This document shows positions 5,580 through 39,601 of a DNA stretch of 64,000 bases, one piece after another. Source of the stretch: Buxus sempervirens (lineage: Eukaryota > Streptophyta > Magnoliopsida > Buxales > Buxaceae). The translations under genes and the position numbers were made by a program. Under the pieces are notes generated by a model. That model was not told the DNA's origin and did not search any database. It saw nothing but the letters and a program-made list of their open reading frames with translations. The stretch covers positions 18,214,048 through 18,278,047 of the forward strand of contig OX387194.1 in assembly GCA_947561395.2 (NCBI GenBank), in the 5' to 3' direction. Position 1 is the stretch's first letter; each line of letters begins with the position of its first letter.

Positions 5580-5677
5580 CCGTATTTTATTCACGGGTCG
5601 GTCGCCCGAAATTTCTATACGGTCAGGCGCGCCCGTATTGGAAATACGGACACCACTAGACCGTAAATCATTCACGG
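5580..5677 (+). promoter_or_regulatory. dyad array 1 (4 units CCGT-N9-ACGG), 5' LTR
   Basis: Units at 5580-5596, 5606-5622 (CCGA), 5633-5649 and 5661-5677, with starts 26, 27 and 28 bp apart. Each is a 4-bp inverted half-site flanking exactly nine bases, equivalent to CCG-N11-CGG. The third is extended to CCGTATT-GGA-AATACGG. It lies about 200 bp upstream of the TATA box, where an upstream activating or repressing site would sit. It recurs in the 3' LTR and in both solo LTRs. Confidence 0.85.
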
Positions 5678-5880
5678 GCACTATAGACTCGTGCGAGTTT
5701 TATTCTTCTCTCGATTTCTGAGCCTTATCTTTAGTCCAATATCCCTTTAAATGAGCGAAATAGCTCTTTTATTCGCTGAAACCACCTTGGTTGGCCATGG
5801 ATGGGCATTATCTCCGTTTTTGACTATATCCTCAAGATCAGGATATATCCTTCTGGACCAGCCTTGCCCCTGTGCTTGTC

Positions 5881-5888
5881 TATAAATA
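5881..5888 (+). promoter_or_regulatory. LTR TATA box
   Basis: TATAAATA followed by gaggtgagattctc, in the middle of the LTR. The same box is at 25313 (3' LTR), 38189 and 27463 (solo LTRs). Start of transcription is expected about 30 bp downstream, so U3 is about 435 bp long. Confidence 0.8.
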
Positions 5889-6110
5889 GAGGTGAGATTC
5901 TCAAGCAAAAGGCCACGAAATTTTGAAGACTCAAGAGCTCCAAGAGAAGAAAGGAATCCCTGCTGCTCTGCTTGCTGAATCCAGGTAAGTCCCTTTCCCC
6001 TTTTATTTCATATTTTCAATTCTAGAAGTAATAGGATCTTCTCTATTGCTGTAGAATAAGGCCACCTTTTATCTTGTATTCCTAAACTTGTCTCTAAGTA
6101 CCTCAAGAGT

Positions 6111-6294
6111 CTCTCTAGCCGTAAAACGTGAAGAGAGAGCTAGGGGAAAGGGGAACAGGTGGATCCCTAGAATAGAACCCCATAATTTGTTTTTTCTTTT
6201 CTTTTTAGAATAAGGCCTTTGATTGTGTTTGTGTACCCAAACCTATTTCCAAGTACCTCAAGAGTCTCTCTAGCCGTAAAACGTGAAGAGAGAG
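6111..6294 (+). repeat. duplicated CTCTCT-GAGAGAG stem-loop element in LTR
   Basis: Two copies of CTCTCTAGCCGTAAAACGTG followed by AAGAGAGAG (6111-6139 and 6266-6294), each embedded in a longer direct repeat of about 80 bp running from aagtacctcaagag to caggtggatcc. CTCTCT can pair with AGAGAG, and the loop holds CGTAAAACG. It is also in the 3' LTR (twice), in solo LTR 37781 (twice) and in the diverged solo LTR 26883 (once, about 27702-27732). It lies in transcribed R/U5, so an RNA role such as dimerisation or packaging is possible. Confidence 0.7.
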
Positions 6295-7279
6295 CTAGGG
6301 GAAAAGAGAACAGGTGGATCCGTAAGGTAGGCCCCCATGTGCTCTAATTTGTGAGATATGGCTGTTTTGATATCCTGATCATGTTTTAATGATTTTATCT
6401 TGAATCTAGATTAATCCTATGAGTTCATGGTGATTATAGCATGAGATCCTCGCTTTTTTCTAAAATTTGGATTATTCACACTTTTGCACCTATAGCACTG
6501 TTTTCGTGATTTTTGTGATTTTAGGCTAAGATCCTGGATTTATCATGATCAATATGGTAGATCTGGATCCAAAAGCCTGAAAACAACTTCTAGGGTTTCA
6601 TGATATGGTTTTTGAGTTGTTTTTCACTTTTGAGAGAAGACCCTACGGTCTAAGTTCTCCCCTTTTGATGTTCTTCATTAACGTGGGTATTTTTTGGTTT
6701 TTATTTTTTGATTTAATGTGAAATTTGGGCTTTATCTATGTCCTGGATTATTCAGGTTCAATTTTGAAATATTTCATAAAAATCATATTTTTCTAGATTT
6801 CTAGAATTTAACTTGAAGCTAGATTTTTGGATTTTTCACATTATTTTGGTTTTATTTGATTTTATCTCAATTTTATTTTAATCATGAAACCCTAGGAATG
6901 GTATGATCATATTTGAAAGTTCTGGATCAATCAGACTATTCGTATGAAAAAACCATACATTTTTGTCTTTTTTATGATTTTTCATGATTTTTGTAGCAAG
7001 CCCTTTTTCCTTTGAAAAACATGAACAATACCTAGCAACCACCTTGTGTGGATGAATAGGGGTGCCTAACACCTTCCCCTGTTCATAACCTAATCCCCTT
7101 ACCCATCTCTGGTTGTTTTTTTTATAGGGTTATTTTTACCCTAAATTTGCCTTTTTGTGCTTATTTGATATTTTGGTGTTCATTCACACCTAAAAAGAAT
7201 GGTGGCGACTCTTTGTTTTTAATGAATCTCGCGTGATGATAAGGAAGTCATTAAATTGATTTTTCCCATGTCTCACAAC

Positions 7280-7298
7280 TGGCAACTCTGCTGGGGAC
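7280..7298 (+). other. primer binding site, Arg-tRNA type
   Basis: TGGCAACTCTGCTGGGGAC begins 2 bp after the 5' LTR. Plant tRNA-Arg ends in ...CCCCAGTGGAGTCGCCA, whose complement is TGGCGACTCCACTGGGG. The site matches with a few changes; TGGCGACTC is the form I know from Tat/Ogre elements. Confidence 0.75.
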
Positions 7299-8529: not shown

Positions 8530-8537
8530 CCGTATAA

Positions 8538-8666
8538 CCATAGTCATAATACGGGCTCGGCTCACCCGTATAGATTATACGATCTGGGCTCGCCCGTATT
8601 AATCATACGGTCACGGCTTGCTCGTAATTTCAATACGGGCACAGCCGGATCGTACTGTGTATACGG
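8538..8666 (+). promoter_or_regulatory. dyad array 2 (5 units, exact 28-bp period), leader
   Basis: Units start at 8538 (CCAT), 8566, 8594, 8622 (TCGT) and 8650 (TCGT): exactly 28 bp apart, each half-site / nine bases / half-site, the right half ACGG in four and ACGA in one. An extra CCGT half-site is at 8530. The units share the dyad but not the nine core bases, so this is not a recent tandem duplication of one sequence. It lies upstream of the gag repeat array. Confidence 0.85.
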
Positions 8667-8800
8667 TCTTAGCAGAGAATTCAATTTTAATCAGTTTTTC
8701 CCAACTAAATCCTGTTCCTTTAACCTTTAAATGATGAAAGGGAGATGAGTTTGAATAAAATGCTTCAAAAAAAAAGAAAAAAAAAGGTAAATAAATAATC

Positions 8801-9790
8801 TTTGGGCCTTTGAAAGCCTTTGAATTTCATACTTTAACCTTTTGGGCCTCTGAAAGCCTTTGAATTTCAAATCTTTCTCAAAAATATCCTTGGGCCTCTG
8901 AAAGCCTTTGAATTTCAGACCTTTTGCAAAATACCCCTGGGCCTCTGAAAGCCTTTGAATTTCAGACTTTTTCCAAAAATACTCCTGGGCCTCTGAAAGC
9001 CTTTGAATTTCAGACTTTTTCCAAAAATACTCCTGGGCCTCTGAAAGCCTTTGAATTTCAAACATTTTCCAAAAATACTCCTGGGCCTCTGAAAGCCTTT
9101 GAATTTCAAACTTTTTCCAAAAATACTCCTGGGCCTCTGAAAGCCTTTGAATTTCAGACTTTTTCAAAAATATCCTTGGGGCCTCTGAAAGCCTTTGAAT
9201 TTCAGAATTTTTCCAAAATATCTCTAGGCCTCTGAAAGCCTTTGAATTTCAGATTTTTTCCAAAAAATCCTTGGGCCTCTGAAAGCCTTTGAATTTCAGA
9301 CTTTTTCCTTTTAGGCCCTAAAAGCCCTTGAATTTCAGACTTTAACCTTTTGTGCCTCTGAAAGCCTTTGAATTTCAGACTTTAACCTTTTGGGCCTCTG
9401 AAAGCCTTTGAATTTCAAACTTTAACCTTTTGGGCCTCTAAAAGCCTTTGAATTTCAGACTTTAACCTTTTGGGCCTCTGAAAGCCTTTGAATTTCAGAC
9501 TTTAACCTTTTGGGCCTCTGAAAGCCTTTGAATTTCAGACTTTTTCCTTTTGGGCCTCTGAAAGCCTTTGAATTTCAGACTTTAACCTTTTGGGCCTCTG
9601 AAAGCCTTTGAATTTCAGACTTTAACCTTTTGGGACTCTGAAAGCCTTTGAATTTCAGACTTTAACCTTTTGGACCTCTGAAAGCCTTTTGAATTTCAAA
9701 CTTTAACCTTTTGGGCCTCTAAAAGCCTTTGAATTTCAGACTTTAACCTTTTGGGCCTCTGAAAGCCTTTGAATTTCAAATCTTTTTCGC
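8801..9790 (+). repeat. 23-copy tandem array with CTGAAA-N9-TTTCAG dyad
   Basis: Invariant core CTGAAAGCCTTTGAATTTCA, usually closing the dyad with G. About ten copies at 46-49 bp spacing (8850-9300, with a CCAAAAATACTCCTGGG linker), then about twelve at 40-41 bp (9327-9782, with a CTTTAACCTTTTGGG linker). The first copy is at about 8810. Units are open on both strands in places (48 bp is 16 codons), which produces repetitive peptides, but there is no coding signature. It lies in transcribed leader between array 2 and gag. Confidence 0.92.
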
Positions 9791-10012
9791 TTATGGGACC
9801 TGTTGGAAGCCCTAGAATATTCCAACAATTCTAAAAAAATAAAAAGAAGCAAATAAAAAACAAATCCAAACTCGTGTTCACCCAGCTAGCACATAGGCAT
9901 TCCTAGGTAGGTGAAGGAGATTAAACGAGCATTGATATATTCTTTTTTATTTTTGCCAGGTACCAATACACTTGCAATCATAGCTCCTGTAACCAGATCA
10001 AGAGCTCGCGCC

Positions 10013-11456
10013 ATGAATCCCATTGAGAATGAAGCTGATGCTCCTCATCCAGATGTTGCCCTGCTCCAAGAGCAAGTAGCAGGACTAGCCCGAATGCTAG
10101 AGAACATACTGTCCGTGCAGGCCCAACAAGTGCAGGCCCAAAACCAAGCATCCACTTCCAACCCTCCACCTCCACCCCAAATCAATATTCCACCTCCAGT
10201 TCAACCAATTCCTGAACCCATCTATGAACCCACCCCTGAACCTATACTGATTAGGGATGAGACAGTCGAGTCAGACAAAGCTAAGGAAAAGGAAAGGATG
10301 AGGGAAGAAGTTGAAAGGAAGTTCCTGCACAAACTAGAAATGATCCAAGATGAACTAAGAGAAGTAAAAGGGGTGAACAACTTCGGGGGCACCAACTTTG
10401 AGGACTTATGCCTATACCCCAATGTTAACCTGCCAGCTAAGTTCAAGTGCCTAGACCTAGACAAGTATGATGGCACTAGCTGCCCCCATGAGCCATCTGA
10501 AGTTGTATTGTGGTGCCTTATGCCAGTTTGGTCGAGATGAAGGTGTTCTGATTCAGCTCTTCTAAAGGAGCCTGATTGGAACCGCTTTAAGGTGGTTCGC
10601 CACTTTGGACCATGGAAAGATTAGAAGATGTAAGGACCTAGCAGATGCCTTCCTGGCTCAATACCGGTTCAATTCAGAAATCGTGCTAGATAGGTACGAC
10701 GTAATGAGAATGAGCAAATGAAGGGATGAGACTGTAAGGCAGTATGCAAAGAGATGGAGGGAAACAGCCTCTCAGGTTAGGCCACCTATGCTAGAGCAGG
10801 AAATGATTTCCACTTTCATCAGCACATTGGGCCAACCATTCTATAGCCATTTGGTGGGTCAGACCACCACGAATTTTGCTGCCTTGGTTCAAGTGGCTGA
10901 CCGAATAGAAGACGGGATCAGATCAGGTAAGATAATTGACCACTCTGCCATGGTTAGTCAGCAGGACCCTAATCTAAAGAAAGGAAGCGGGATAAAGAAG
11001 GATGGGAACAAGAAAGAAGGGGAGGTGAACGTGGTACAGCCACCATCTGGCCCTAACAAGCCCATACAAATCAACATACCTGCCCACTTTCCTATTCCAT
11101 CTGCTCCATCTACCCAGACCCCCATGAGGGTTAATGTTCCAGCAGCACCCTCAGACCAAAAAAGGGTTTTTACTAAAGAGGAAAAGGATGCCTACTTTGC
11201 AGCAAGGAGAAATAGGGTTTTCACCCCTATTCCAATGACTCCTTCTCAGTTGCTACCTACTTTATTGCAAGCAGGGTATATCACCTTAAGAAAGCCCAAT
11301 CCGAATGCATCTAAGGGGAGAAATTATGACCCCTCCATCACTTGTGATTTCCATATGGGTGCACCTGGGCACCCTACTGACAAGTGATGGCCTTTGAAAC
11401 ATGACATTCAGGATTTACTAGACCAGAATACCCTGTCTTTCAATACAGGGGATCCC
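10013..11456 (+). pseudogene. gag (capsid/nucleocapsid), decayed
   Basis: Frame from ATG 10013: a Pro/Gln-rich N-terminus with a coiled segment, then KFKCLDLDKYDGTSCP, the conserved start of the Tat gag core. A frameshift near 10490 moves to the next frame (HLKLYCGALCQFGRDEGVLI, then GTALRWFATLDHGKI and LADAFLAQYRFNSEI). Stops follow near 10565 (TAA) and 10720 (TGA). The Zn-knuckle-like CDFHMGAPGHPTDK ends in TGA (11385-11387) where the Tat consensus has Cys, and continues WPLKHDIQDLLDQ. Packaging protein for the element RNA; non-functional as it stands. Confidence 0.9.
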
Positions 11457-13060
11457 AATCCTCCAAGAACTAATATTGGACAAAACCCGCTGCCCCAGCA
11501 TCATGGGGCAGGCCCATCTAATGTCATAGGGGTCATCTCCTCTGACAAAATAACCTTTCACCCATCTCAATTAATTGCTCCTATAGGGACAATGGTCAAA
11601 GTTTATTTTGACAGAAGAAATGAAGACAAAGAGGTAAATGTAATTTCAAAAGGGAATGATAGTGCTACTAAGAACATTAGCTCTTCTCTGGACCGGGTCT
11701 CGTCTCTCATGGCCCAAATGAATATAGCCAAACCACCGTTGGTCATCAATTGCAGTCCATCCACCTTTACTTCACCCATTCAGTCCAAACCACCATTGGT
11801 CATAAACTGTGACCCTCTTAGTGCATCAGTCACTTCTGCAACCCCTCAACCAAAACAACTTCCACCATTGGTTGTTAATGTTCCCTTTACTCAGACTTCC
11901 ACAGCCAAGTCCAAACTTCCTCCATTGGTGGTAAATGTCCCTAAGCCTACTTACTCTGAATCGGCTGTACCATGGAACTACAGTGAAGCATTTACCACTA
12001 CATTCCCTGCTGCTGAAAGCAATAAGAAAGTAAACCTCATGACAAGGTCAGGAAAAGGTATAGGGGAGGAAGAAAAACGGAAAGAAATCGGAAAAGAAAA
12101 GAAGGAAGAAGAGAAAAATAAAGGAAAGGCCAAGGTAGGGGAAGATGCCCCTCAGGTAGTTGACAGTGAGGCTGCTGACCTCATTAAAATCATAAAAAAG
12201 AGTGAGTTCAATGTTGTTGAGCGGTTGAACAAAGTCCCTGCCCAGATCTCAATATTGGGCTTGTTGTTAAATTCTGAAAAACATAGGGAATCTCTGTTGA
12301 GGGTACTTCAGGGGGCTCATGTGCCTAAAAATATTGAACCAGACCAACGAGGCCGGATGGTTGGGCAGATTTTATCCCACAATGTTATAACTTTTTCTGA
12401 GACTAAAATTAGCCCATCAGGGTACCATCATGTTGATCCTTTGCACATAGCTGTGCTCAGTAAGGGTTGCATGATAGCCCGGGTTTTAATTGATAATGGG
12501 TCGGCTCTGAATGTCTGCCCATTGATAACCTTTGTTAAGCTTGGTTTGGAGCAAAATAAAATCAAGCAAAATGGAAGAATCATAAGAGCCTTTGATAGCT
12601 CTAAAACACACTCTCTAGGGGAGGTTGAACTGCCGGTCACAATTGGACCGTATATTTTTAACATCACATTTGAGGTGATGGATATACCTGCAGCCTTCAA
12701 CCTACTCTTAGGAAGGCCGTGGATTCATACAGCTAGGGCTATACCATCTACCCTCCACCAGAGAGTTAAATACATTAGAGGGCAAAAGGTGATTACTGTC
12801 CTAACTGAGAATTTGGTTCCTCCCATGTGGTCCCCTGATGTACCCTTCATAAACATGGAAATGACTGCAGACAAATTGACATTTCACTATTTTCAATTTG
12901 AAACTGTCAATTTTATACCTGGAGGGCATCAGGAAAAAGAAGGAAAGATGACCTGTGCTAAGAAAATGGTCAAGAAAATGATGGGAAAGTACAATTTCCA
13001 CCCTGGAAAAGGTCTAGGGGTTAACTAGCAAGGAAGAATAGAACTGGTAAAGGCCAAGAA
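11457..13060 (+). pseudogene. aspartic protease with C-terminal G-patch
   Basis: Continues gag in the same frame after a Pro/Ser/Thr-rich linker with repeated PPLVIN/PPLVVN motifs. The protease core is around 12470-12720: ARVLIDNGSALNVCP carries the catalytic D-x-G (DNG, as in other Tat elements) and FNLLLGRPWIH the downstream Leu-Gly box. A G-patch follows (KYNFHPGKGLGVN, then QGRIELV) interrupted by TAG 13026-13028, one C-to-T change from CAG. A G-patch behind the protease is a known feature of several plant and retroviral elements and may bind RNA. Confidence 0.88.
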
Positions 13061-15420
13061 GCTGGTTCACAGAGTGGGATTGGGGTCCAGGTCAAGAGTT
13101 TGGAAATGACAGAAGCAGGAGGAAGGCATGAAATTCCCTCACATCAGGGAAACTTTTCCAAAGCTTTCTCATATGATTCAACTGTCTCCTCCTCAGGATC
13201 AATCCAAACTACCATACTATAACATTAACCCTTTCCAAAAGCCTTATGTCCCTACCTTGCAACCATATGTTCCACATACACCTACCCAGGCACTGGTTGA
13301 GCCTGAACCACAGGCAGAACAGGAGCAGGATTTTTCTGAGGACATTGGAGCCTTTTTTGTCATGACTGAAGGCAACAAAGAAGAAGGAGCAAAGGAGCTA
13401 CCTTTCATTGATTGGGCTGCAGTAAAAGTTCCATCTGGGACCAGTCCTACAGAAGAAGCAGGCGATGCAACTCATCCAGTATTGGTGATTTCAGATGCGG
13501 ATCCTAAGCTTGAGGAGCAGGCTTGTATCCCTGCCCCAGATTCTTTTATTTTGAACAATTGGGAGGAAACTCCCCTTACTTTTGAAGCTGCGTTTGTTTG
13601 GCAAACAGACATGGCTTCCAAAAAAAACTCCATTAGTGGAAGGCCCTTTTCCTAAAGGTTTTAATGAGCCTTCATCTTCAGGAAAAGATTTTTTAGAAAG
13701 CTCTCAAAAAACACAAAAAGATTTTTCAATTTTTTATAGAAAAGATAAATTTTTCAAAAAGGTCCAAACCATTTATGAACCATATAAGCAAACGGAATTG
13801 GATCAGGTTGAGTATGACTTCGACCTCGAGCTCGACTTTGACCTAATGGGGGTTGAAGAAGAGACCGAGGACGAAGAAGACGACCCTCCAAAAGAGATCA
13901 CATATCAATTAGAGCGTCATGAAAAGGGGGTCCAACCCAATATTGAAGAGACCATATCTGTAAACCTAGGGACCGAAGATGACCCACAAATAGTGAATAT
14001 TGGGGTATGCCTATCTGAGGTACAACGTGATGAAATGATACGGTTCTTAGCTGACTACAAAGATGTGTTTGCTTGGTCCTATCGAGATATGCCTGGATTA
14101 GACACAGACATGGTTGTACATAGGCTACCAATTCTACCAGATGTTAAGCTAGTTAAGCAGAAATTGAGAAGGTTGAAACCTAAGTGGACATTGAATGTCA
14201 AAGATGAAGTGGTTAAGCAATTTCAAGCTGGATTCTTGACAGTCTCCACATACCCTGAATGGCTTGCAAATATAGTACCAGTACCAAAGAATGATGGAAA
14301 AGTTAGAATGTGTGTAGACTACAGAGACTTGAATAAAGCAAGCCCAAAGGATGATTTTCCACTTCCACACATAGACATCTTAGTGGACAACACTGCTGTA
14401 CATAGCCTGTTCTCATTCATGGATGGCTTCTCAGGGTACAATCAGATTAAGATGGCTAAGGAGGATCAAGAGAAAACAGCCTTCATTACACCTTGGGGTA
14501 CCTTCCACTACATTGTCATGCCATTTGGGCTTAAGAATGCAGGGACAACCTACCAGTGGGCCATGACAGCCTTATTCCATGATATGATCCATAAGGAAAT
14601 GGAGGTCTATGTGGATGGTATGATAGCCAAATCGTGTAAAGAAGAAGACCACTTGATCAATTTGAAGGTGTTTGACAGACTTAGGAAATACAGTCTAAGG
14701 CTTAATCCTGCAAAATGTGTCTTTGGGGCTACATCAGGAAAATTGTTAGGGTTTATAGTAAGTAGAAAAGGGATTGAGATTGACCCAGCCAAAGCTAAAG
14801 CAATCATTGAAATGCCATCACCCAGAACAGAGAAGGAAGTTCGGGGTTTCCTTGGAAGGATTCAATACATAAGCCGGTTCATAGCACAGCTTACTGCTAT
14901 CTGTGAACCAATTTTCAAGCTTCTAAGAAAGAATAACCCGACGGTCTAGAATGACGATTGCCAAGAAGCCTTTGACACAATAAAGAAGTATCTATTGAAC
15001 CCACCTGTGCTAGTGCCACCAACCCCAGGAAGACCACTAATCCTATACTTGTCAGTTTTGGAGATGTCAATGGGATGTGTTTTAGGGCAGCATGATGAGA
15101 CATGTAGAAAGGAAATGGCGATTTACTACCTAAGCAAGAAATTCACAGAATATGAAGCAAAGTATTCCCCTTTGGAAAAAACTTGTTGTGCTTTAGTATA
15201 GGCAACTCAAAGACTGAGACATTATTTCCTTAGTCATTCCACCTTATTGATATCCCGAATGGATCCTTTGAAGTATTTGTTTGAAAAACCAGCTTTAACT
15301 GGCAGAACAGCAAAGTGGCAGTTGTTACTATCTGAATTTGACCTCACCTATATCACACAGAAAGCCATTAAGGGTCAAGCCATTGCTGATCACTTAGCTG
15401 CACATCCTCTACCAGAATAC
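13061..15420 (+). pseudogene. reverse transcriptase and RNase H, decayed
   Basis: A spacer (13128-13640) leads to an A8 tract near 13619 where the reading frame changes by one, consistent with an A7-to-A8 expansion. RT then reads KLRRLKPKWTLNVKDEVVKQ, VPKNDGKVRMCVDYRDLNKA, HYIVMPFGLKNAGTTYQ and VYVDGMIAKS. The catalytic YVDD is YVDG (GAT-GGT at 14614-14619), which should abolish polymerase activity. TAG stops at about 14947 (V-stop-NDDCQEAF) and 15199 (ALV-stop-ATQRLRHY) each stand where the family has Trp, so TGG became TAG. The ordinary RNase H region follows RT (QEAFDTIKKYLLNPPVL to LRHYF). Confidence 0.93.
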
Positions 15421-15900
15421 CAACCTTTGAAGACCAATTTTCCTGATGAAGAAATACTGTTCACAGAAGAAGAGGAAAATGAAAGCTCATGGCAAATGTT
15501 CTTCGATGGGGCCACCAATATGAATGGAAACGGAATAGGGGCAGTTTTGGTCAAGCCAGATGGGTCACATATCCCAATCGCAGTAAAATTGAGATTCCAG
15601 TGTACAAACAATATAGCAGAGTATGAAGCATGTATAATTGGGTTACAAGCAGCCTTAGATCATGAAGTAGAGGAACTTGACGTATATGGAGATTCGAGTC
15701 TTATCATCTTCCAAACAACTGGTGAATGGAAGACTAAGGATCACAAGTTGATCCCCTATCACCAGTATTTGGAAGAAATAAGCACCAAATTCACTCGAAT
15801 TTCCTTTAATTATATGCCAAGGGCCAAGAATCAATTCGCAGATGCTTTAGCAACATTGGCTTCAATGGTTAGTATGCCAAAAGGTGTTGATATTAAACCA
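15421..15900 (+). pseudogene. second, archaeal-type RNase H domain
   Basis: WQMFFDGATNMNGNGIGAVL, then NIAEYEACIIGLQAALDH, DVYGDSSLIIFQ and KNQFADALATLASM: the acidic residues of an RNase HI fold (D, E, D, D) are all present. A second RNase H of this type between RT and integrase is diagnostic of the Tat lineage. It has no break of its own but sits in a polyprotein broken on both sides. Confidence 0.9.
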
Positions 15901-17220
15901 CTAGAAATTGAGGTTAGGGATGAACCTACTTATTGCCTTGTTCTAGAAGGGGCACCAGAGGAAGAGGTACCATGGTTTCAAAACATTAAGAATTTCCTAA
16001 AGGATCGTAGTTGGCATGAAAATGTCATGTCTACAGAGAAAAGGACAATACAGAGGTTGGCAGGTCAGTTCCTACTAAGTGGTGGGCAGTTATACAAGAG
16101 ATCACACAATGATATCCTACTCGGATGTGTTGCCAAGACTGAATCAGAAAGGTTAATTGATACGGTACATGAAGGAGTTTGTGGACCCTATATGAACGGG
16201 CACATGCTTGCTAAGAAGATTCTGCGATTGGGATATTACTAGTCGACTATGGAGCACGATTGCTATATACATGTCAAAAGGTGTCATTTATGCCAAGTGT
16301 ATGCTGATAACAAGAATGCACCTCCAAGTGCATTGCATAACATGACATCTCCATGGCCCTTCCCTATGTGGGGCATAGACGTCATTGGAATGATCTCTCC
16401 AAAGGCATCAAATGGTCATAGATTTATACTTGTAGCAATTGATTATTTTACCAAGTGGGTAGAAGCAGCTTCGTATGCAAACATCACGAGTAATCACGTT
16501 CTTAAGTTTGTAAAGCACAACATCATTTGTCGCTATGGTTTGCCAAGTGCCATAATAACAGACAATAATTCAAACCTTAAGAACAAGGATATGAGGAAAA
16601 TGTATGAACAGTTTCAGATTACCCATCACAAGTCAGCTCCTTATAGACCAAAGATGAATGGGGCAGTGGAAGCAGCAAATAAGAATATAAAGAAGATTAT
16701 TCAAAAGATAGTAGTGAGTTTCAAAGATTGGCATGAAATGCTGCCACTTGCTCTACATGCCTACAGAACCTCGATTCGGACTTCTACTGGGGCCACCCCG
16801 TATTCCCTAGTCTATGGAATGGAAGCAGTGTTACCAGTGGAAGTAGAAATCCCTTCACTGAGAGTGTTAATGGAAGCTGAATTAGAAGAAGCTGAATGGA
16901 TACAGTCAAGACATGATCAACTCAATTTAATAGAAGAAAAGCATTTGAAGGCGCTTAGTCATGGCCAATTGTATCAGAAAAGGATGGCCAGGGCTTACAA
17001 TAAAAAGGTGAAGCCCAGAACTTTCCAAGAAGGAAATTTGGTATTAAAGAAGATCTTACCCTTTTTGGAAGACCCACGTGGAAAATTCAAACCAAATTGG
17101 GAAGGACCTTATGTTGTCAAAAAGGTCCTATCAGGGGGTGCTCTTATCTTAACAGAAATGGACGGGAGGGATTTTCCTGAGCCAATAAACTCTGATGCCA
17201 TAAAGAGATATTTTCCATGA
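15901..17220 (+). pseudogene. integrase, decayed
   Basis: HHCC zinc finger: HEGVCGPYMNGH, then a TAG at 16240 (RLGYY-stop-STMEHD, again a Trp codon), then CYIHVKRCHLCQ. The catalytic core has D in WGIDVIGMISP (about 16380), D in AIITDNNSNLKN (about 16560) and E in MNGAVEAANKN (about 16670), so the D,D,E triad is intact. The C-terminus is a GPY-type module (NWEGPYVVKKVLSGGALIL) ending DAIKRYFP at TGA 17218. There is no chromodomain, as expected for Tat. Confidence 0.92.
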
Positions 17221-19991: not shown

Positions 19992-19999
19992 TTTATATA
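19992..19999 (-). promoter_or_regulatory. TATA box of antisense gene 1
   Basis: TATATAAA on the minus strand, about 92 bp before the ATG at 19900 and 25 bp downstream (in gene direction) of the nearest dyad unit. Array, TATA and gene in that order make a compact promoter. Confidence 0.6.
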
Positions 20000-20024: not shown

Positions 20025-20151
20025 CCGTAATTATAATACAGGCATAGCGCGCCCGTATAAAGAATACGGACACACTTGACCGTGAAAAATTCACGGCAGA
20101 GTGCGCCCGTGTTAACATTACGGGCACGGCTTGCTCGTAGTCTAAGTACGG
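20025..20151 (-). promoter_or_regulatory. dyad array 3 (5 units), promoter of antisense gene 1
   Basis: Units at 20025-20041 (right half ACAG), 20053-20069, 20080-20096, 20107-20123 and 20135-20151 (TCGT), with starts 28, 27, 27 and 28 bp apart. It fills the 470-bp gap between the stop of antisense gene 2 (20370) and the ATG of antisense gene 1 (19900). Confidence 0.85.
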
Positions 20152-24386: not shown

Positions 24387-24551
24387 CCGTAAGAGAGAAT
24401 ACGGGCGCAACAATTTAGGGCTGAAATGCGAGCAGAGGAGAAGAAGTCGCGGTCGCGATATTAAGAAGGAAGATAAAATCCATAAAATCAGTACGGGCAG
24501 CAGGTGACCGTGAAGGTAATACGGTCCCACTTGCCCGTGATCAAAATACGG
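24387..24551 (-). promoter_or_regulatory. dyad array 4 (4 units), upstream of antisense gene 2
   Basis: Units at 24387-24404 (ten-base spacer), 24480-24496 (CCAT), 24508-24524 and 24535-24551. The last three start 28 and 27 bp apart. It lies 1.15 kb upstream of the antisense gene 2 ATG and about 350 bp from the 3' LTR, so it could serve either. Confidence 0.75.
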
Positions 24552-26383: not shown

Positions 26384-26404
26384 ATAGTCTGATTGATCAT
26401 ATTT
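26367..26404. repeat. fold-back junction between 3' LTR and RLP
   Basis: GATCAATCAGACTATTC (LTR), spacer GTAT, then GAATAGTCTGATTGATC, an exact 17-bp inverted copy. The LTR ends within this palindrome, and RLP sequence begins right after it (tttaaaccacttgcttgg). This is what snap-back synthesis at a broken end, followed by joining to distant DNA, would leave. Confidence 0.9.
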
Positions 26405-26877
26405 TAAACCACTTGCTTGGTTTAAGGCACTTGAATTACTTGGATCTAAGCATGAATAATTTTGATGGAATCCCTATCCCAGAATTCATCGGATCACTAA
26501 ACACATTGACTTACCTTAATCTCTCCCAAGCATCATTTGCGGGAAGTGTTCCAACCCAACTTGGAAATTTGTTAGCCTTGAATTATCTTGATCTCTTTGT
26601 AGATAGTTTGGATCTAACATTGTATGTGGACAACCTACACTGGCTTTCCAGTCTCACTTCTTTGGAATATCTTTGTATGGGAGGTGTGGACCTAGGATAT
26701 GTAAAGAATGATTGGCTACAATTAGTTGATATGCTCCCTTCTTTGTTAGAATTGCACTTATAATATTGTAAACTTGATAACCTTCCCCTCACCCTTCCTT
26801 CCGTTAATTTTACTTCTCTTTTGGTCCTTGATCTTTCTTACAACAATTTCAACACCTCAATACCTCGATGGTTGTTT

Positions 26878-29302
26878 AGTGGTGTAGACACCCCAAATTG
26901 CACTTCCATAGAAGAAAACCTTCGAAAGAATTTTAAAAGTCTTATTTGAGCCTTGACATATGTCAAACACTCAAAAACTCTCAAAATTGGTGCCAACCAT
27001 ACTGAGTATACGGTTTTTATAATTTTGATCTCAACCGCCCTATATGTACGGTTGCAACCGCACACACAGCACGGTTGATATCCATGCTTGTTGCGTGAGC
27101 TGCCACGTGGCTTCGCGAAGCTTCGGCCGTTGAGCCACGTCGACAGCAATCATGACGAGCATAACTAAATTGAACCGTCCTGTATGTGCGGTTTGGTTAA
27201 ATTTGCATAGAAACCGCACTTATAGTGACGGTTCTGTGGAAACCGTACTGTGTATGCGGTTTTGGCTGTTTCGGGGATTTGCGAAATTGCTCGATTTCTG
27301 AGCCTTATTTACGTATATTACCTCTCTCTCAGGGACTTGAACTCCCTATTTCACCCTCCGAAACTTCTAGTATTACTCCAATTCAAGCCTTGGAGGAGAA
27401 TTGGAATAATCTAGAAGGCTTTTTAGGCCTACCCTTGGGACTCTTCTACCCCTGACTTGACCTATAAATAGAGGGGTCCTCCTCTTGCAAATGACTGACA
27501 AATTGAGGCTTAGAAGCTCTGCAAGAAGAAGGAGAAGCTCTGCTGGATTGTCTACTCAAGTGTTCAAGCTACCAAGGTAAAGCTCTTTACATTTCCAGCA
27601 CTCTCTTTACATTTCACTCCCAACTTCTACCTTTCTGTAGTGCAAAGCTAATTTGTGATTGTTTGCAAGCCCCAAACCCCTTCCAAAGTACCTGGGAATC
27701 CTCTCTAGCCGTAAAACGTGAAGAGAGAGCCTTGGGAAAAGGAAGGTGGAATGGATCCTCTAGGCTTAGAACCTACAAGTGATGAAGAGCATGCTATGTG
27801 GTTATTTTAAACCTATGGATGTTTATTTTCTGATGTTTTGCACTTGCTCATGGAGAAATATGTGAATCCTTGCTCTCAGTAGCAAAGGATTCCATCATTC
27901 TCCTAAGGAGTTAATTTTCACATATTCACACACTTTCCACCATTTTTTATCAAAGAAGCTAGATCTTGGATTTCCATGTTCAATACGAGAAATCTGAATC
28001 CATTGGCTTCAAAATGAATCTTAGAACTTCATGAGATGGTTTTTGTTGATTTTTAAGAGTTTTGGTCGAATTCACTTGCACACATGTAATGATTTTGGTT
28101 TTTATCCAAAAATCTTCAAAACAGGGCAAATCTGTGGCCTGTCTTGGAATGCTTATAACTTCATCCTCTGGATGAATTTTTGAGTGATTCCAAAGACATG
28201 TGATAGATGGATATGCCTATTTCATATCTGGAAAATTTCGTCCACTTTTATGTAGCCAATTTTTGACACCACCTGTTCAAAGTCTGTAAGTCAGTTCAGC
28301 CCAGATTGCTGAACTTGCCGCTTTGATGGTGTACCGTTTATTCAATTTTAATCCGTTTTGAGTGATTCTAATTCCTGAGTTTTCCTTGAGAAGTATATTT
28401 TCATTTCCAATTGGTTCCAGCAGATTTTAATCTGTTTTGTGCCTTGGGTGCTCAGTTGACTCAGAGGTGCTCGCTGGCATAGTCTAGAGCTAATCTGTGG
28501 TCTTCTAGGCATGTTCAAGAGAGCACACAAGTCACATCCGGATAGAGTTTGGTGTGAGGTTTTTTTTCTTTGGAAAGATGGCACTACATACTTCCCCCAT
28601 ACCAATTTTCATGAATTTTTATTGAGCCAAACTCCACGAATAGGACTTTGAAAATGCCTACTCATCACTTTTGATATATTATAAACAGCAAATTTCAGAT
28701 GTGGATTTCTCTCTTATTTTGAATCAGATTGAGTTGAAATTTTTACTGTATACTCTACTATATACCAGTTTTCAAATAGCTTTGGTTTCATTGGATTTGG
28801 ATTTAAATTGAGTGAGTTATGGTTAATCGAAGCTTTCTAGCTCTTTTGATCTAATTTCTCCAGATTTGCAATAGCTTGATTTTCTTCATTTTCACTTGGA
28901 TTTCCCTTCACTCATGAAGTTTTAGAGGTGATGAATCCACAAAGAGAGTCCAAGCTCATTAGATTTCTCATGTGGGATGGTCACACACATTGTGCTTGTT
29001 ATAAGCACCCTTTTTATTCATTTCATTAGCAAACAATTTCTAGCATAAGCAAGCATGTGGCAACCGTCTTAGACAGATGAGTGGGGGTGCCTAACACCTT
29101 CCCCTGCTCATAAATAATTCCCCTTACCCAATCTCTGGATTTTTCCTTATCTTAGAGCTACTTTAGCTCTATTTGATTTCTATGAACCCTTTGGTGTCCA
29201 TTCACACCCTAAAATGGATGGTGGCGACTCTTAGCTTTTATTGATCCTCGCATGACGATATAGGAAGTCATACGAGATGACATTTCCATGTCTCACAAGT
29301 GG
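26878..29302 (+). mobile_element. solo LTR, diverged Tat subfamily (2415 bp) with perfect TSD
   Basis: The LTR is 26883-29297, from TGTAGACACC to TCTCACA. It is flanked by AGTGG at 26878-26882 and 29298-29302. Removing LTR plus one AGTGG restores the RLP reading (tttagtgg-caatcttgtg, against tttagtgataaccttgtg in paralogs). It is longer than and clearly different from the 1.8-kb LTR but shares both ends, TATAAATA (27463), the CTCTCT..GAGAGAG stem (about 27702) and six dyads. There is no internal region, so it is a product of LTR-LTR recombination. Confidence 0.97.
26997..27259 (+). promoter_or_regulatory. dyad array 6 (6 units), diverged solo LTR
   Basis: Units at 26997-27013 (CCAT..ACGG), 27035-27051 (CCGC..ACGG), 27058-27074 (CCGC..ACGG), 27175-27191 (CCGT..GCGG), 27214-27231 (ten-base spacer) and 27243-27259 (CCGT..GCGG). 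Outer bases favour AACCGY-N9-RCGGTT. Core bases differ from the other LTR family, but the half-site and nine-base spacing are kept. Confidence 0.8.
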
Positions 29303-32300
29303 CAATCTTGTGGAACTAGACCTCCGCTGGAATCACTTCCGAGGTCCCATTCCTGATGCCTTTGCAAAGGCGACTTCTCTTCAGGGGCTTTTTCTTTTCG
29401 ATAATACAAACATTGAGGGTCAAATACTGAGAACTTTGGGTAATCTTTGTCAGTTGAAGAGTTTATAGCTATCAAGCACCTCTGTCAATGGAGGGATATC
29501 TGATTTTGTGGACTATTTGTCTTCTTGTGCTAAGAATAGCTTGGAGATGCTGGACCTGAGTGGAACCAAACTCATCGGGTATTTACCCGAATCAATAGGA
29601 TCACTTGAAAGCTTGAGGATTCTTCGACTATCCAATAATTCATTTTGGGGTTCGATCCCAACATCAATCAGTAACTTGTCTTCCTTGAAAGAGTTGGACC
29701 TTGCTTCTAGTCAAATGAATGGGACTATTCCGAAAAGCATCGGATAACTCTCAAATTTGGTCAGATTGCGTCTAGGTTGGAATTCATGGAAGGGTGTCCT
29801 AACCGATGCTCATTTTGTAACCTCATGAGATTGAAAGACTTGACCATATTCCTTTTGGGGTCTTCATCAGAAAAATCCATTGTCTTCAATGTCACAAACG
29901 AAAGGATGCCCCCTTTTAGGCTTGAACGCATCTTGATGTATGACTTCAATTTGGGCTCGACATTTCCTGCATGGTTTCAAACACACAAGCAACTCAAACG
30001 AATAGTGCTTACCAATGTCGGTATTTTAGATACCATACCGAATTTCATTTGGGAGTTATCCTCACAGATGAATATATTGGATCTCTCTCATAATCAAATA
30101 AAAGGAAGGGTGCCAAAATCATTATCATTCCCTTATGACTCGGAAGTGTACCTAAATTCCAACTGTTTGGAGGGTGAACTGCCATTATGGTCCAATGTGA
30201 GCTCACTATGGTTGAATGATAATTTGTTTTCTGGATGCATTCCCCTTGAGATTGGCAATATAATGTTGCCAACGTTGACTGAATTGAATCTGTCTAATAA
30301 CTCTTTGAATGGTATCATTCCCTCATCCATTGGCAAGCTTAAGAATTTGCAGATGCTTGCTTTTTCTAACAATCATTTCTTCGGAGAAATTCCATGGTTC
30401 TGGAAGGATCTACAAAACTTGAAGTATGTAGATCTATCACATAACAATCTATCAGGTGGCATTCCGAGTTCAATGGGATATCTGCTCAAAGTAGAGTTGT
30501 TACAACTTAGTAGCAATGATCTTTACAAGGAATTGCCTATGACCTTGAGCAACTGCACAGAATTGAGATCCCTTGATCTTGGCAAGAATAGACTCTCTAG
30601 GAACATATCACCATGGATAGGAAACAGGTTATCACATTTGTCAATTATGCGCTTGCGATATAACCTGTTTAGTGGTAATATTCCTTCACAATTATGTCAT
30701 CTTTCTAATCTTCATATCTTGGATCTCGGAGATAACAATTTTTCGGGATTCATTCCTCAATGTTTGGGAAATTTGAGGGGTATGATTGAGATTGAACCCT
30801 CTTTCTACAATTTCAATTTCGTTGATCATATGGAGGTAGTTGTTAAAGGAAGAGAATTCGAGTATTATGAAACTCTTTGTTTTGTGAAGAGCATAGACCT
30901 TTCAAGGAATAGTCTTTCTGGAAAGATACCTGAAGAGCTAAAAAACTTGTCTCAACTAGGTACCCTGAATTTATCGATGAATCATCTTACAAGTATGATT
31001 CCAAGGAAGATTGGGAGTTTGAAATTGCTAGAAACACTTGATTTGTCCAGAAACCAACTTATCGGCCTGATTCCTTCAAGCATCTCTTCTTTAACATCCC
31101 TAAACCACTTGAATTTGTTATACAATAACTTGCATGGGAGAATTCCAACAGGAAACCAGCTACAAACCCTCAACGATTCATCAATATATGAAGGTAATTT
31201 TGAACTCTATGGACCTCCTCTAACGATGGTGTGCCTGAGTGATGAAACTGCTCATGCCCCATCACTTGTTCACAGTGTAAACCAAGATGGAGATGAATTT
31301 GAAGACTTATGGTTTTATATTGCCATGGGATTGGGATTTGCAACAAGGTTTTGGGTTGTATGTGGAATTTTAATATTAAAAAGATCGTGGAGGCATGCCT
31401 ACTTTCAATTCTTTGATGATATGAAGGAGTGGATCCTAATGGTTGCTACAGTGAAGGTCAATCAATTGCAAAGGAAGATGAATTTACAAAGGAACCCACG
31501 GTATTAGGTGCGGAAAGCTTGTGAAGGTATTTCCATATTGTGTACCAAGTATGGTTTTTTAATTATACATGTTTTCAGAGATGAATGCTGCAAACTATTA
31601 ATTGAATGAGTATTATTCACAACTACTATTTTGTTGCAAATTCACATGCAAAAAAATTGGTTTACACCATGCTTTCTTTTGTATGGCTATATTTATATAA
31701 ATAGCATAACTTAATAGATTTGATTCTTAAGATGGTATTTCAAATAAAGATTTCCCATTTATTATCTCAAATATATCAATCATACATAATATGCCTTTTT
31801 CACAAAATAAAAATTTAACTAAAAAAAAAGCTATATTTAACAACAAATCTATCTCCTCCCCCAGCAAAATGACTAAACAAATTAATAATTGCTATTTCAA
31901 AATAAGTATACTATTGTTCCTTTAAAATTTAGTCCTCAATTGAGTTCACATCCTCTGTGACGTGAGACAGGACTATTGATACATTTTTTCGACCATTAGT
32001 TTGGCACTTGCCAATACACACCGTGCCAAATGTAATATTAGCTTGGTGCCTTGAAAATATGAACCTTGGATAAGCCTTTGATTGGATGGGCTTTATTGTT
32101 GGTATGGTGTAAATTACACACTGCCTAAGGTTTAGTGTAGTAGATGGATTCTTCCCTTGCCTTATTTGCAATTACACTAAGTACTCGCTTGGCAATGAGA
32201 TTTAAACAGGCCATGTTTGGTCCGAGTCAATGTGAATCTAGCTAACTAGTTGTCTTGATGAGAACCTCACCTATCTTGTGATTATTTTGCAATTACACTA

Positions 32301-33852: not shown

Positions 33853-33941
33853 TTAAATTAAGGTGACTTTTGCTACAAAATATCATAATATTATTAAATT
33901 AAGGTGACTTTTGCTACAAAATATCATAATATTATTAAATT
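33853..33941. repeat. 41-bp tandem repeat, 2.2 copies
   Basis: ttaaattaaggtgacttttg and the following 21 bases recur exactly at 33853 and 33894, with a partial third copy from 33935. Confidence 0.85.
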
Positions 33942-35420: not shown

Positions 35421-35972
35421 GTGCCGTTAGGCAACCTTAAGTAATACTAGCATTGGAAATACGTTTAATACATATAATAGTTTGAGAAATTTTTTTATAA
35501 ATATTAGGAAATATAGGAAAAACAATTATTAATATTGACATTTGTATAATTTTTTTTTTATTTTCCAAAAAAGAATATATTTTTATAAGTTGTAAATATT
35601 TTTGTGTACCAAATTTCTATATTTTTCATCTATTAAAACTGGTTGACGATGTTTGATTCTAATATACAATATATGAAATAAAATTAAAGAATATATGAAT
35701 AAGGAAATATTCTTTAAACCTCAAGTGCACAGTATTAAAAAAGTAAAATGAAATTGTTGCTAGTTAGATGGTAGTGAACATGGAGCAGCTAGTAATGGTA
35801 GTTTAGATTACTTAGTTGTTAAGCTGTGAATGATGTTTATGATAGTTTAAAAAATGGAATAATTGTTTTATTGTTAGTAGACCTATTTTTTGTTGAATGA
35901 CTATAGTTTGTCTTTAACTTTATTTAATTATTTGCTCATTGATAAGTTTGTATGAACTTATAAATTTTAAAA

Positions 35973-36092
35973 AATCAGCAAGTTATAAGTTTATTCAGTC
36001 AATATTAACTTGCTGATTTATAGCCAGCAAGTTAATATTTTACAATTAAAATAAATTGTAAAATCAGCAAGGTAATTTTAACTTGCTGATTT
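35973..36092. repeat. pair of AATCAGCAAGTTA hairpins
   Basis: AATCAGCAAGTTA (35973) faces TAACTTGCTGATT (36006-36018). A second, near-identical hairpin is at 36062 (aatcagcaaggtaa) and 36078-36092 (ttaacttgctgatt). Possibly a small MITE remnant. Confidence 0.6.
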
Positions 36093-37775
36093 GACTTTAC
36101 AGTTAATATTTCATTAAAATAAATTATAAAATTTCGTCAGTTAATATCTCTAATTTAAGTAAAACGCCTCATTAATAATATAAAATAAATTGTAATTGAT
36201 CATCCATTTCTGTAATTACATTAATGGCTTATCTGACAAAATGTTGTCGGCGTTTATGGTAGATAGAATACCAACGGGCATGATTTTCACTTGCAATTTT
36301 ACGTTGCTAGAGCTGTCTTCCCTTTTGGGCTTTGGTTGTGCGGGGGGATCCTTTTTCTCTTTGTTTTGAGTGAAAAATCATAGAAACAGTAGGCATTTAA
36401 GTCAGATTATCATGTCCAAATACCAGGTTAAGAGTTTGATCTTTGAAGCTCCCATTGGGCTTCAAGGAAACAGATAGCACTCCTGAAACTATGACAAAAA
36501 GATTTGTGTAAATCTAATTCCCAATACAACATAAAACACCCAATAACTTGTTGGCACAACAATCAATTTCCACACACTGAAGAAATAATTAAATCAAGAA
36601 ATACAGCAGCCCATCACAGATTACACTCACATCACCACCCCCTCCATCTTGACAAAACCTCTGTCACAGAAGTCATCCATGTCATACAACCTAAATGTGA
36701 ACATGGATACACAAATCGCATTGGAAAAAACTTGCTTAGACTTAAACCACAGCAATAGCATAGCTGCAGGACATCCTGTCCACTAAAATTGACAAAGCAC
36801 TGTAATCAGAAAACTTCAAACCTGGAGACTACGTAAGCTGCTTGCAGTCTTTGGTTATGAGAGTTCTATTGAGATTATTTATAAAGCAAACCAACACACA
36901 CGATGAAGCTATAAACCAATTAGATGTCTCAATACATGGGAGTTCAAAGCTATACCATTTTAACCAATGGGCTCATCAGAGCTGGTAAACATGAAATACC
37001 AAGGTTTCTTCGACACTGCATTTGAGAAGTTCCACAATGACCTTCTGGAATTAACACGTCACTCCATCTTTTACACATGGAACCTCCTATAAAAATTGCT
37101 CATTATGGGAAGATAAGCAAGGATCTATTCCAGCAAGTCATCAGGGAGGACTTAATCCATTGAAACCATAGTGCTTTTTTAAATGCCTTCATCAACAAAG
37201 TAAAGAATCCTGAACATAAGGAGGAAGCAACAGTAAGGTATCAAGTCATTGAAAAATCAGGTAAAAAAACGATGAACTAATCATCCGTATAAAATATGAG
37301 CTACATGTTGAATCGAAGTGAAGATCAACCCATAAATCTAAGGAAAATTTTGTGGACAAACTTTGAACAAAATCAGTCGGAAGACATGTATCTCTTAAAA
37401 CATTTCTTACTCTGTTTCGGTGTTCTCATCAAAGTATGGTACAACCTCATACCCTTTGGAAAGACCTTAACATGGAAAAATTTTTTGGTCAATTCCACCG
37501 TCGAACTGGCACCGAATAGATGCCAGAAACTCCACAGCATGGGTCTCCCCATTGGCGAGCAAAGTCTAAAACTTTGTTTTAGTTCCCATAAAAAATGATG
37601 ATGATGAAAATGTACGATGAAGATGAAGCTGTAACCCCGCTTGAGTATATCGGCAAGCACTTGAGTTCTCCTCCACATCATCTTTATAAAATCTACAGAC
37701 ATGTAAAGCTTCTCGCCGCCGAAGTCCACACCGTCCTTTGAAGCCTGTAGCAATGTAGTCAGAGAAAATTTTAGC

Positions 37776-39601
37776 GGTCGTGTAGACACCCCAAATTACA
37801 CTACAGAATGAGAAAGTAATAAAAACATGTAATTAGAGCTTAAAACAGGTTAAAAATGCATAAAAATTGACTAAGCAAGCTTTGCCCTTATTTTATTCAC
37901 GGGCCGGTCGCATCCGAAATCTCTCTACGGTCAGGCGCGCCCGTATTGAAAATACGGTCACCCTTGGACCATAATTCATTTACGGTCACTAAAGACTCGT
38001 GCGAGTTTTATTCTTCTCTCGATTTCCGAGCTTTATCTTTAGTCCAATATATCTTTAAATGAGCGAATTACGTCTTTTATTTGCTGAAGCCACCTTGGTT
38101 GGCTATGGATGGGCATTATCTCTGTCTTTCACTCTATCTTAAGGACCAAGATATATCCTTCTGGACCAGCCTTGCCCCTGTGCTTGCCTATAAATAAAGG
38201 TGAGATTCTCAAGCAAAAGGCCACGAAATTTTGAAGAATCAAGAGCTCCAAGAGAAGAAGAGGAACCCTTGCTGCTTTGCTTGCTCAATCCAGGTAAGTC
38301 CCTTTTCCTTTTTTATTTCATATTTTAATTCTAGATGTAATAGGATCATCTCTATTGTTGTAGAATAAGGCCATCTTTTGTATCTAGTATTCCTAAACTT
38401 GTCTCTAAGTACCTCAAGAGTCTCTCTAGCCGTAAAATGTGAAGAGAGAGCTAGGGGAAAAGAGAACAGGTGAATCCCTAGAATAGAACCCCATATCTGT
38501 TTTTCTCCTTTTTTCTAGAATAAAGCCTTTGATTGTGTTTGTATAACCAAACCTATCTCTAAGTACCTCAAGAATCCTCTCTAGCCGTAAAACGTGAAGA
38601 GAGAGCTAGGGGAAAATAGAACAGGTGGATCCGTAGGGTAGACCCCTATGTGCTTTAATCTGTGAGATATGGCTGCTTTGAATATCCTGATCATGTTTTA
38701 ATGGTTTTTATGATGAATCTGAATGAATCTATGATGTTCATGATGTTTATAGCATGCGATCCCCACTTTTTCCTAAAATTTGGATTTTTCACATATTTGC
38801 ACCTACAGCACTGTTTTCGTGATTTTTGTGATTTTAGGCTAAGATCCTGGATTTATCATGATCAATATGGTAGATCTAGATCCAAGAGCCTGAAAATAAA
38901 TTCTAGGGTTTCATGATATGGTTTTTAAATCGTTTTTCATTATTGAGAGAAGACCCTACGGTCTAAGTTCTCCCCTTTTGATGTTCTCCATCAACGTGAG
39001 TATTTTTGGTTTTTATTTTTTGATTTAATGTGAAATATGGGCTTTATCTATGTCCTGGACTGTTCAAGTTTAATTTTGAAATATTTTATAAAAATCATAT
39101 TTTTCTAGATTTTTAGAATTTGACTTGAAACCAGATTTTTGGATTTTTCATTTTAAATTGATTTTATTTGATTTTATCTCAATTTTATTTTGATCATGAA
39201 ACCCTAGGAATTGTATGATCATATTTGAAAGTTCTGGATCAATCAGACTATTCGTATGAAAAAACCATACAATTTTTGTCTTTTTCGTGATTTTTCCTGA
39301 TTTTTATAGCAAGCTTTTTTCTTTATTTTAACATGAACAATACCTGGCAACCATCTTGTGTGGATGAATAGGGGTGCCTAACACCTTCCCCTGTTCATAA
39401 CCTAATCCCCTTACCCATCTCTGGTTATTTTTTTTAGGAGGGTTATTTTTACCCTAACATTGTCTTTTGTGTTTATTTGATATTTTGGTGTCCATTCATA
39501 CTTAAATTGAATGGTGGCGACTCTTTGTTTTATTTAATCCCGTGTGATGATAGAGGAAGTCAAAAAGGAATTTTTGATTTTTTCCCATGTCTCACAAGTC
39601 G
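37776..39601 (+). mobile_element. solo LTR of the Tat element (1816 bp)
   Basis: The LTR is 37781-39596, from TGTAGACACC to TGTCTCACA, and closely matches the full element's 5' LTR along its length. It is flanked by GGTCG (37776-37780) and AGTCG (39597-39601), a 5-bp target duplication with one change. It carries TATAAATA (38189), the GTAAGT donor (about 38294) and both CTCTCT stems. It lies inside the sugar-transferase pseudogene, in the opposite orientation. Confidence 0.96.
37886..37985 (+). promoter_or_regulatory. dyad array 7 (4 units), solo LTR
   Basis: Units at 37886-37902 (CCTT), 37914-37930 (CCGA), 37941-37957 and 37969-37985 (CCAT), with starts 28, 27 and 28 bp apart. Right halves are ACGG in all four although the nine core bases differ from the full element in several units. 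Confidence 0.85.

Follow-up and report, generated by a model that had tools for sequence, protein, structure and literature searches.

We analysed a stretch of 64,000 nucleotides of the Buxus sempervirens genome (the window; C21:18214048-18278047 of the 676.5-Mb assembly), in which arrays of a dyad of fixed geometry, CCGT-N9-ACGG, lie at promoter-like places of long terminal repeat (LTR) retrotransposons. The initial annotation had attributed these arrays to a single Tat retrotransposon. Comparison of the LTRs revealed instead three separate insertions in the reported span: an element designated A, a solo LTR of the A family and a solo LTR of a second family. The 5' LTR of element A (5475-7277, plus strand, 1803 bp) begins with TGTAGACACC and ends with TCTCACA, as read from the sequence, and matches 24905-26384 at 97% and 37781-39597 at 90%. 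Directly after it lies a putative primer-binding-site-like stretch (7280-7298, plus strand). The gag-pol region (10013-17220, plus strand) contains reverse transcriptase (RT), RNase H and integrase domains, and a truncated 3' LTR was identified by its LTR match (24905-26384, plus strand). The layout is Tat/Retand-like, with LTRs, integrase following RNase H, and antisense open reading frames (ORFs) in the long region between the pol end at 17220 and the 3' LTR at 24905. TRP28 (PF04195), the Retand hallmark, gave no match at E<=1 in three antisense ORFs that were scanned singly and not as whole spliced genes. The A-family solo LTR (37781-39596, plus strand) has the flanks GGTCG/AGTCG, with one mismatch. 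The solo LTR of the second family (26883-29297, plus strand) is flanked by a 5-bp duplication, AGTGG, read by eye; it is 79% identical to L021 and 83% to the LTR in L078 (L-numbers denote fetched sequence pieces).

All seven arrays reported by the initial annotation are present. Array 1 (5580-5677) consists of four dyads with steps of 26, 27 and 28 bp. Array 2, in the leader of element A (8538-8666), has five dyads with every step 28 bp, and array 3, at the promoter of antisense gene 1 (20025-20151), likewise has five. Three dyads and one unit with ten inner bases (N10) form array 4, upstream of antisense gene 2 (24387-24551). The truncated 3' LTR carries array 5 (25010-25109) and the A-family solo LTR array 7 (37886-37985), with four dyads each. 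These dyads belong to class I; array 6, in the solo LTR of the second family (26997-27259), is made up of five dyads of a second class (class II), the first with one mismatch, and one N10 unit. The window has 12 exact copies of CCGT-N9-ACGG, where 200 dinucleotide shuffles in 1-kb blocks lead one to expect 0.055 (maximum 1); with up to one mismatch there are 33 sites against 2.85. Thirty of the 33 sites lie inside the arrays (4, 5, 5, 3, 4, 5 and 4 per array), the others being lone sites at 21400, 34992 and 37498. With the two N10 units, at 24387 and 27214, the arrays hold the approximately 32 units originally counted. The one-mismatch count of each array was reached by none of 2,000 shuffles of its own sequence; with the stricter CCG-N11-CGG, array 2 keeps one site only, which was matched in 4.2% of 2,000 such shuffles. 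Nineteen of the 32 successive distances measure 26-28 bp, compared with none in 100 shuffles of 500-bp blocks. The motif is hence both more frequent and more regular than in shuffled sequence, and the exact 28-bp step described earlier for array 2 holds; array 6 is irregularly spaced, with steps of 38, 23, 117 and 68 bp. Two further features of the units were observed. The lone dyad at 21400-21416, near gene 2, is exact and is kept in another copy (L069 1563, reverse-complement coordinates). The terminal unit of an array can carry the directional core CTGNGTAT or a sequence near it, which is class II-like even in class I elements and possibly a heterotypic site (8650 in the window; L045 545; L048 581 and L051 546, reverse-complement coordinates; L065 744; L066 835; L067 5869).

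The constraint on the dyads was analysed in 420 bases of 34 LTR copies, 31 of them fetched and three from the window. Non-consensus letters amounted to 5.1% in the half-sites, 14.6% at positions 5/13 and 21.9% at the inner seven positions, compared with 19.4% in the spacers, 13.2% in the flanking two bases and 10.4% in the remaining LTR sample. For CpG the values were 6.9% in half-sites and 18.5% elsewhere. Since the half-sites are less variable than inner bases, spacers and the rest, constraint rather than recent duplication accounts for the pattern, as had been proposed; a simple 28-bp satellite is ruled out by this difference. The nine inner bases are, however, not wholly free as had been claimed. 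Among 48 distinct dyads, the bases adjoining the half-sites are A in 84 and G in 12 of 96 cases, and in class II the inner bases are directional. The class I outer flank adds K and C, giving the 21-letter form GMCCGT-N9-ACGGKC, to which five dyads of element A conform exactly and the rest with one to several mismatches. The two halves matched at inner positions 5-8 in 36, 17, 25 and 20 of 48 dyads, compared with 37.4, 15.0, 25.1 and 19.2 by shuffling. The halves thus do not covary, as is typical of a protein-type dyad and not of a hairpin. The 17-bp span is fixed (41,383 N9 against 6,158 N10 forms genome-wide), and families that otherwise share little DNA similarity have the same dyads. Independent halves and a fixed span agree with the dimer-type sites envisaged by the initial annotation.

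Arrays are found at the LTR promoters, within the leader and ahead of each antisense gene, and those near a TATA box keep a nearly fixed distance from it. In element A the LTR TATA box CTATAAATAG (5881-5887, plus strand) begins 204 bp past the end of array 1. The same distance separates array 5 from the TATA box of the truncated 3' LTR (25313), array 7 from that of the A-family solo LTR (38189) and array 6, counted from its last unit, from that of the class II solo LTR (27463); it was also worked out from the sequence for the class II LTR of L078. An array-TATA pair was found in 22 of the 31 fetched A-type LTR parts, at 202-204 bp in 20 and at 199 and 228 bp in the others; the remaining nine gave no pair, either because array or TATA word did not satisfy the criterion or because the piece stopped. 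Two arrays of a 200-kb regular sample of the genome (L017, L018) each lie 203-207 bp before a TATA box. In other LTR families the arrays end 17 and 183-184 bp (L066, L067) or 45 and 184 bp (L065) before TATA. In these three pieces the LTR TATA box is followed, at a distance of about 0.8 kb, by a second array, which in L065 is apparently inside the LTR. On the minus strand, the TATA box of antisense gene 1, CTATATAAAC (19993-19999), follows array 3 by 26 bp. Array 4 lies 1.6 kb upstream of the plant-mobile-domain (PMD) exon of gene 2, beyond a putative leader intron. The internal arrays recur in further insertions: array 2 in three of three other copies examined (L045, L048, L051), array 3 in L069 and L070, together with CTATATAAAC, and array 4 in three of three copies (L047, L050, L053) and in two of five further gene-2 copies (L079, L081). 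Next to array 2, the leader of element A contains a minisatellite (8785-9870) whose units measure 40 and 47-48 bp.

Genome-wide, exact CCGT-N9-ACGG was found 41,383 times, compared with approximately 1,270 expected from the base composition of the 200-kb sample. All five exact class I sites of that sample lie in its two arrays, L017 and L018, and none elsewhere. Pairs of dyads with a gap of 5-25 bases number 14,368, against 17 for the reversed control. Among the 50 plus-strand pairs listed, the gap is 11 in 44 and 10 in 6, a period of 27 or 28 bp in all. Likewise, 108 of 126 distances under 70 bp between dyads with up to one mismatch in the fetched loci are 27 or 28 bp, and 15 more are 55 or 56 bp. 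Among the 50 N10 matches listed, 28 belong to one other repeat; the N10 relative CCGTTGGAAGGCCCACGG is a separate repeated sequence in this genome. A scan of IMG/VR for the phased dyad pair gave no match, and a scan of GTDB for a phased triple gave seven bacterial stretches, which by eye resemble unrelated tandem repeats.

What had been described as one motif comprises two classes. The dyads of array 6 read AACCGY-N9/10-RCGGTT, with AA..TT as outer flank where class I has GM..KC, and the inner bases are directional and anti-palindromic. The class II form AACCG-N11-CGGTT occurs 13 times in the 200-kb sample against 0.095 expected, and for each of the other inner lengths between N7 and N15 there is no site or a single one. 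In the whole genome, a class II half comes after a class II dyad 7,039 times on the forward and 7,109 times on the reverse strand (controls 34 and 42). The steps among the 100 matches listed, which are not independent since strands and copies repeat, are 28 (41), 38 (29), 39 (23), 41 (5) and 36 bp (2). Helical phase is kept in 93 of these 100, at 28 and 38-39 bp, about one turn apart. The classes do mix, but about 18 times less often: a class I half comes after a class II dyad 394 and 371 times (controls 26 and 15). Many of the mixed-class matches listed represent one dyad type, class I inside with TT flanks.

The two classes are distributed by element. An element of the second family is represented, from its RNase H to its 3' LTR, by L016 together with the adjoining L078. 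It has 14 exact class II dyads, which are distributed over four places: behind pol, ahead of gene 1, ahead of gene 2 and within the 3' LTR. The only class I-like match there is a two-mismatch site at 9795. Another insertion of this family, L021, adds the LTR and leader. In element A the equivalent places, in the LTR, in the leader and at genes 1 and 2, are taken by class I dyads, and no class II match was found in it at up to one mismatch. Thus each class occupies every array seen of an element, and the motif appears, from this pattern, to have changed as a set within an element. The observation made at one locus is hereby confirmed and extended to a genome-wide system of two classes. The L016 array at 2859-2974, with pol on one side and the 3' end of antisense gene 1 on the other, is an extra one; no counterpart was found in element A at up to one mismatch.

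Both antisense genes encode PMD proteins. Antisense gene 1 (PMD/DUF7745; 18164-19771, minus strand) comprises two exon-like ORFs. The ORF at 19184-19771 matched PF24924 (2.6e-17) and PF10536 (1.6e-10; 41.2 bits, curated cut-off 34.9), and the ORF at 18164-18979 stayed below the curated cut-offs of the two families, with 13.9 bits for PF10536. The PMD ORF of antisense gene 2 (21452-22747, minus strand), which contains an intron-like stretch, matched PF10536 at 2.8e-21 and 76.5 bits, above the cut-off. Copies of gene 2 were scored for 97 of 7,012 first-look candidates. The ratio of nonsynonymous to synonymous divergence (dN/dS) of gene 2 was 0.04 against L068 and 0.09 against L069; three pairs within class I gave dN 0.025-0.048 and dS 0.475-0.625, which marks gene 2 as strongly conserved within that class. 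For gene 1 the ratio was 0.21 (against L070), similar to the 0.20 of integrase. Both antisense genes are under purifying selection. Between element A and the class II element, dN was 0.059 for integrase, 0.069 for RNase H, 0.147 and 0.265 for the gene 1 exons and 0.301 for the gene 2 PMD, five times the integrase value. In this one comparison, the divergence of gene 2 between the classes is consistent with a change of specificity in gene 2. In the available text of PMC5418596, PMD function is described as undetermined, PMD-A1/A2 are said to be encoded only by Gypsy elements, and a role of captured PMD in anti-silencing is speculated for MULEs. For the maize Grande antisense gene, an own promoter and a nuclear protein are described in the accessible part of PMC7264820.

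We propose that the arrays are operators, acting as upstream activating or anti-silencing sites for a dimeric sequence-specific protein, most likely the element-encoded antisense PMD protein; we would put the chance of this reading at about even. A protein dimer would bind two inverted half-sites over a 17-bp span (YACGGKC in class I, RCGGTT in class II), and dimers would line up every 27-28 bp, in class II also every 38-39 bp, about one helical turn more. The arrays stand next to the LTR promoter, within the leader and ahead of the two antisense genes. The first candidate for the reader would be gene 2. By binding the arrays of its own and of related copies, the reader could switch sense and antisense promoters together, and its specificity would keep families apart, as VANC proteins do for VANDAL elements. 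As for the sign of regulation, activation or anti-silencing would be favoured. Binding, the identity of the protein and this sign are what we infer from the sequence. Since two related families use different versions of the site at the places examined, each of them may have a control protein of its own. A more specific version, somewhat short of an even chance, would be self-recognition in plant Ty3/gypsy elements: the gene 2 PMD would bind the arrays of its family, and coordinated change of all arrays and of the protein would have split the families into non-cross-reacting classes, GMCCGT..ACGGKC and AACCGY..RCGGTT. The operator interpretation of the initial annotation is supported in part: constraint, dimer geometry, positions and recurrence stand, and the single element, the free inner bases and the one motif do not.

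A number of points limit these findings or weigh against this proposal. The TATA boxes are consensus matches, and in L016 no canonical TATA was found between the array and gene 1. The fetched LTRs are 31 of 42 matches listed, from 8,348 first-look candidates; the 50 class I pairs and 100 class II matches are the first places listed, from a single contig and including copies of the same family. The reversed control pattern is itself 4.8 times over expectation (24,928 against 5,234), and the reversed N10 control (18,625) exceeds the N10 count. Array 3 was not seen in L068, where no match reaches that part. Of the three gene-2 copies without array 4, two pieces apparently end short and one apparently has unrelated sequence. 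Arrays are also borne by stretches with no detectable gag, pol or PMD match (L017, L018, L066, L067), and in L017 about 7 kb separate a class I array from a class II array, which possibly do not belong to one element. The between-class divergence of gene 2 comes from one class II element with saturated synonymous sites, the within-class values of gene 2 and integrase come from different copies, and gene 1 exon 2 (0.265) is nearly as diverged between classes as gene 2. L065 has class I dyads though its gene 1 fragment is just 36% identical to that of A, and the gene 1 of the class II element is 65-79% identical to that of A, so gene 1 divergence does not track motif class. A structure model of a gene 1 exon made without an alignment had a mean predicted local distance difference test (pLDDT) value of 35 and was not used; no DNA-binding fold emerged from it. 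A protein database search gave no PMD relatives at E<=0.001 for the two antisense ORFs searched (118 and 7,995 candidates), and a PDB search gave no relatives at E<=1. Finally, the motif to which the available text of PMC9899485 links the PMD proteins MAIN/MAIL1, CATGCAGTTT, does not resemble the dyad.

Other explanations of the arrays were weighed against an element-encoded reader. A host transcription factor, an activator with a dimeric CCG-type site, may read the arrays, the elements having collected sites for tissue- or condition-specific expression. Tandem boxes upstream in other plant LTRs, for example in Tnt1, are read by the host. The position of the arrays upstream of LTR TATA boxes, their presence on stretches without detectable coding sequence and the spread of class I over families with very different gene 1 proteins speak for such a factor. 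Yet two flank classes, each at every array of an element, would require two host factors; the antisense gene promoters bear the same arrays; the five exact class I sites of the 200-kb sample all fall into the two arrays before TATA boxes; and a search of the open-access PubMed Central (PMC) literature for such a plant factor gave a single paper, on an oomycete. We regard a host activator as possible, though rather doubtful. A host silencing factor could instead recognise the families, the copies keeping the sites by descent only. Each site has two CpG, the sites lie in non-coding control regions, and host factors binding element families are known (KRAB zinc fingers). A harmful site should, however, decay or vanish, and the half-sites are the best conserved part, CpG included, so that we consider silencing unlikely.

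Neutral tandem repetition, with a duplicated 28-bp unit of which the dyad is a remnant, would explain why one step length (28) predominates; according to the accessible text of PMC11963269, elements of this kind often contain tandem repeats. Against it, half-sites and spacing are maintained, whereas the divergence of inner bases and spacers is about double that of the remaining LTR sample; the dyads are shared by otherwise dissimilar families, and most of the class II steps listed keep helical phase. This explanation is very improbable. Scarcely any weight can be given to a role of the dyads as RNA hairpins or DNA cruciforms in packaging, processing or recombination. Some units are perfect inverted repeats, such as that at 5633. 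The arms lack covariation, by which we rule out hairpin and cruciform, the inner bases of class II are anti-palindromic, the outer letters of the half-sites are invariant, an Rfam scan gave no match at gathering thresholds, and the LTR array is upstream of the TATA box.

No description of the dyads was found in the open-access PMC literature, the scope of the search, which excluded subscription papers. VANDAL elements are Mutator-type DNA transposons. By analogy, the nearest described system would be VANC/VANDAL, which the present one resembles without being a member of it, because element type, protein domain and site type differ. Both have a short motif arrayed as tandem repeats in non-coding regions of the copies, and related families with different motifs, here two classes, for which the match to a protein rests on one comparison. 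VANC belongs to another protein family. Element A, an LTR retrotransposon, encodes RT, RNase H and integrase together with the antisense PMD proteins. The element-encoded protein is proven there and proposed here; binding and demethylation are proven there, and our system is known from sequence alone. The motif of VANC21 is YAGTATTAY and those of VANC6 are AGTTGTCC and AGTTGTAC, according to the available parts of PMC5735166 and PMC10398659. As far as these accounts go, the arrays of VANC motifs consist of 9-mers or 8-mers that all point the same way, in contrast to the 17-21-bp dyads described here.

Gal4-type sites have the form CGG-N11-CCG. They share two CGG triplets and a 17-bp span with our dyads, but their half-sites face the opposite way. 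This site type was rejected, as CCG-N11-CGG outnumbers it by 20 to 8 in the window; to our knowledge, the protein class is not expected in plants. HTLV has Tax-responsive repeats and the antisense gene HBZ, and Tax acts through host CREB. The likeness lies in U3 repeats tied to an element-encoded regulator and in an antisense gene; proteins and sites are unrelated. The HTLV antisense promoter is mentioned in the accessible text of PMC7264820. MAIN/MAIL1 share the domain family of our antisense proteins and have a promoter motif tied to activity, DOWN, according to the available parts of PMC7156037 and PMC9899485; the motif is unlike the dyad, these are host genes and, as far as these sources extend, direct binding is shown in neither system. 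The antisense genes of Retand/Tat elements, TRP28 and Grande gene23, likewise lie antisense between pol and the 3' LTR, in Grande with an own promoter (accessible text of PMC11963269 and PMC7264820). For the antisense TRP28 proteins of Retand elements a DNA-binding regulatory role has been proposed, with no target sites named in the available text (PMC11963269). Here the protein is PMD/DUF7745, not TRP28, and candidate target arrays are present.

The elements are inserted into a cluster of repeated leucine-rich repeat (LRR) receptor-like gene copies and fragments. Its pieces lie at 26385-26882, 29298-31507, approximately 46.2-49.2 kb, 51.4-54.8 kb and 56.7-59.7 kb (inverted). The cluster contains a 771-nt inverted repeat of 92% identity (50465-51235/58586-59356).

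In the available text of PMC11963269, the role of the antisense genes in such elements is described as undetermined. The phased, conserved arrays offer a concrete target for the question whether PMD proteins bind DNA, with the two classes as a built-in specificity control. If the proposal holds, the tens of thousands of predicted sites could serve annotation and methylome analysis. If the proposed self-recognition were true, PMD would be a DNA-binding domain, and host silencing genes of the MAIN/MAIL1 type would be related to a control protein of retrotransposons. It would follow that plant retrotransposons, like VANDAL DNA transposons, acquired sequence-specific self-regulation through proteins that they themselves encode.

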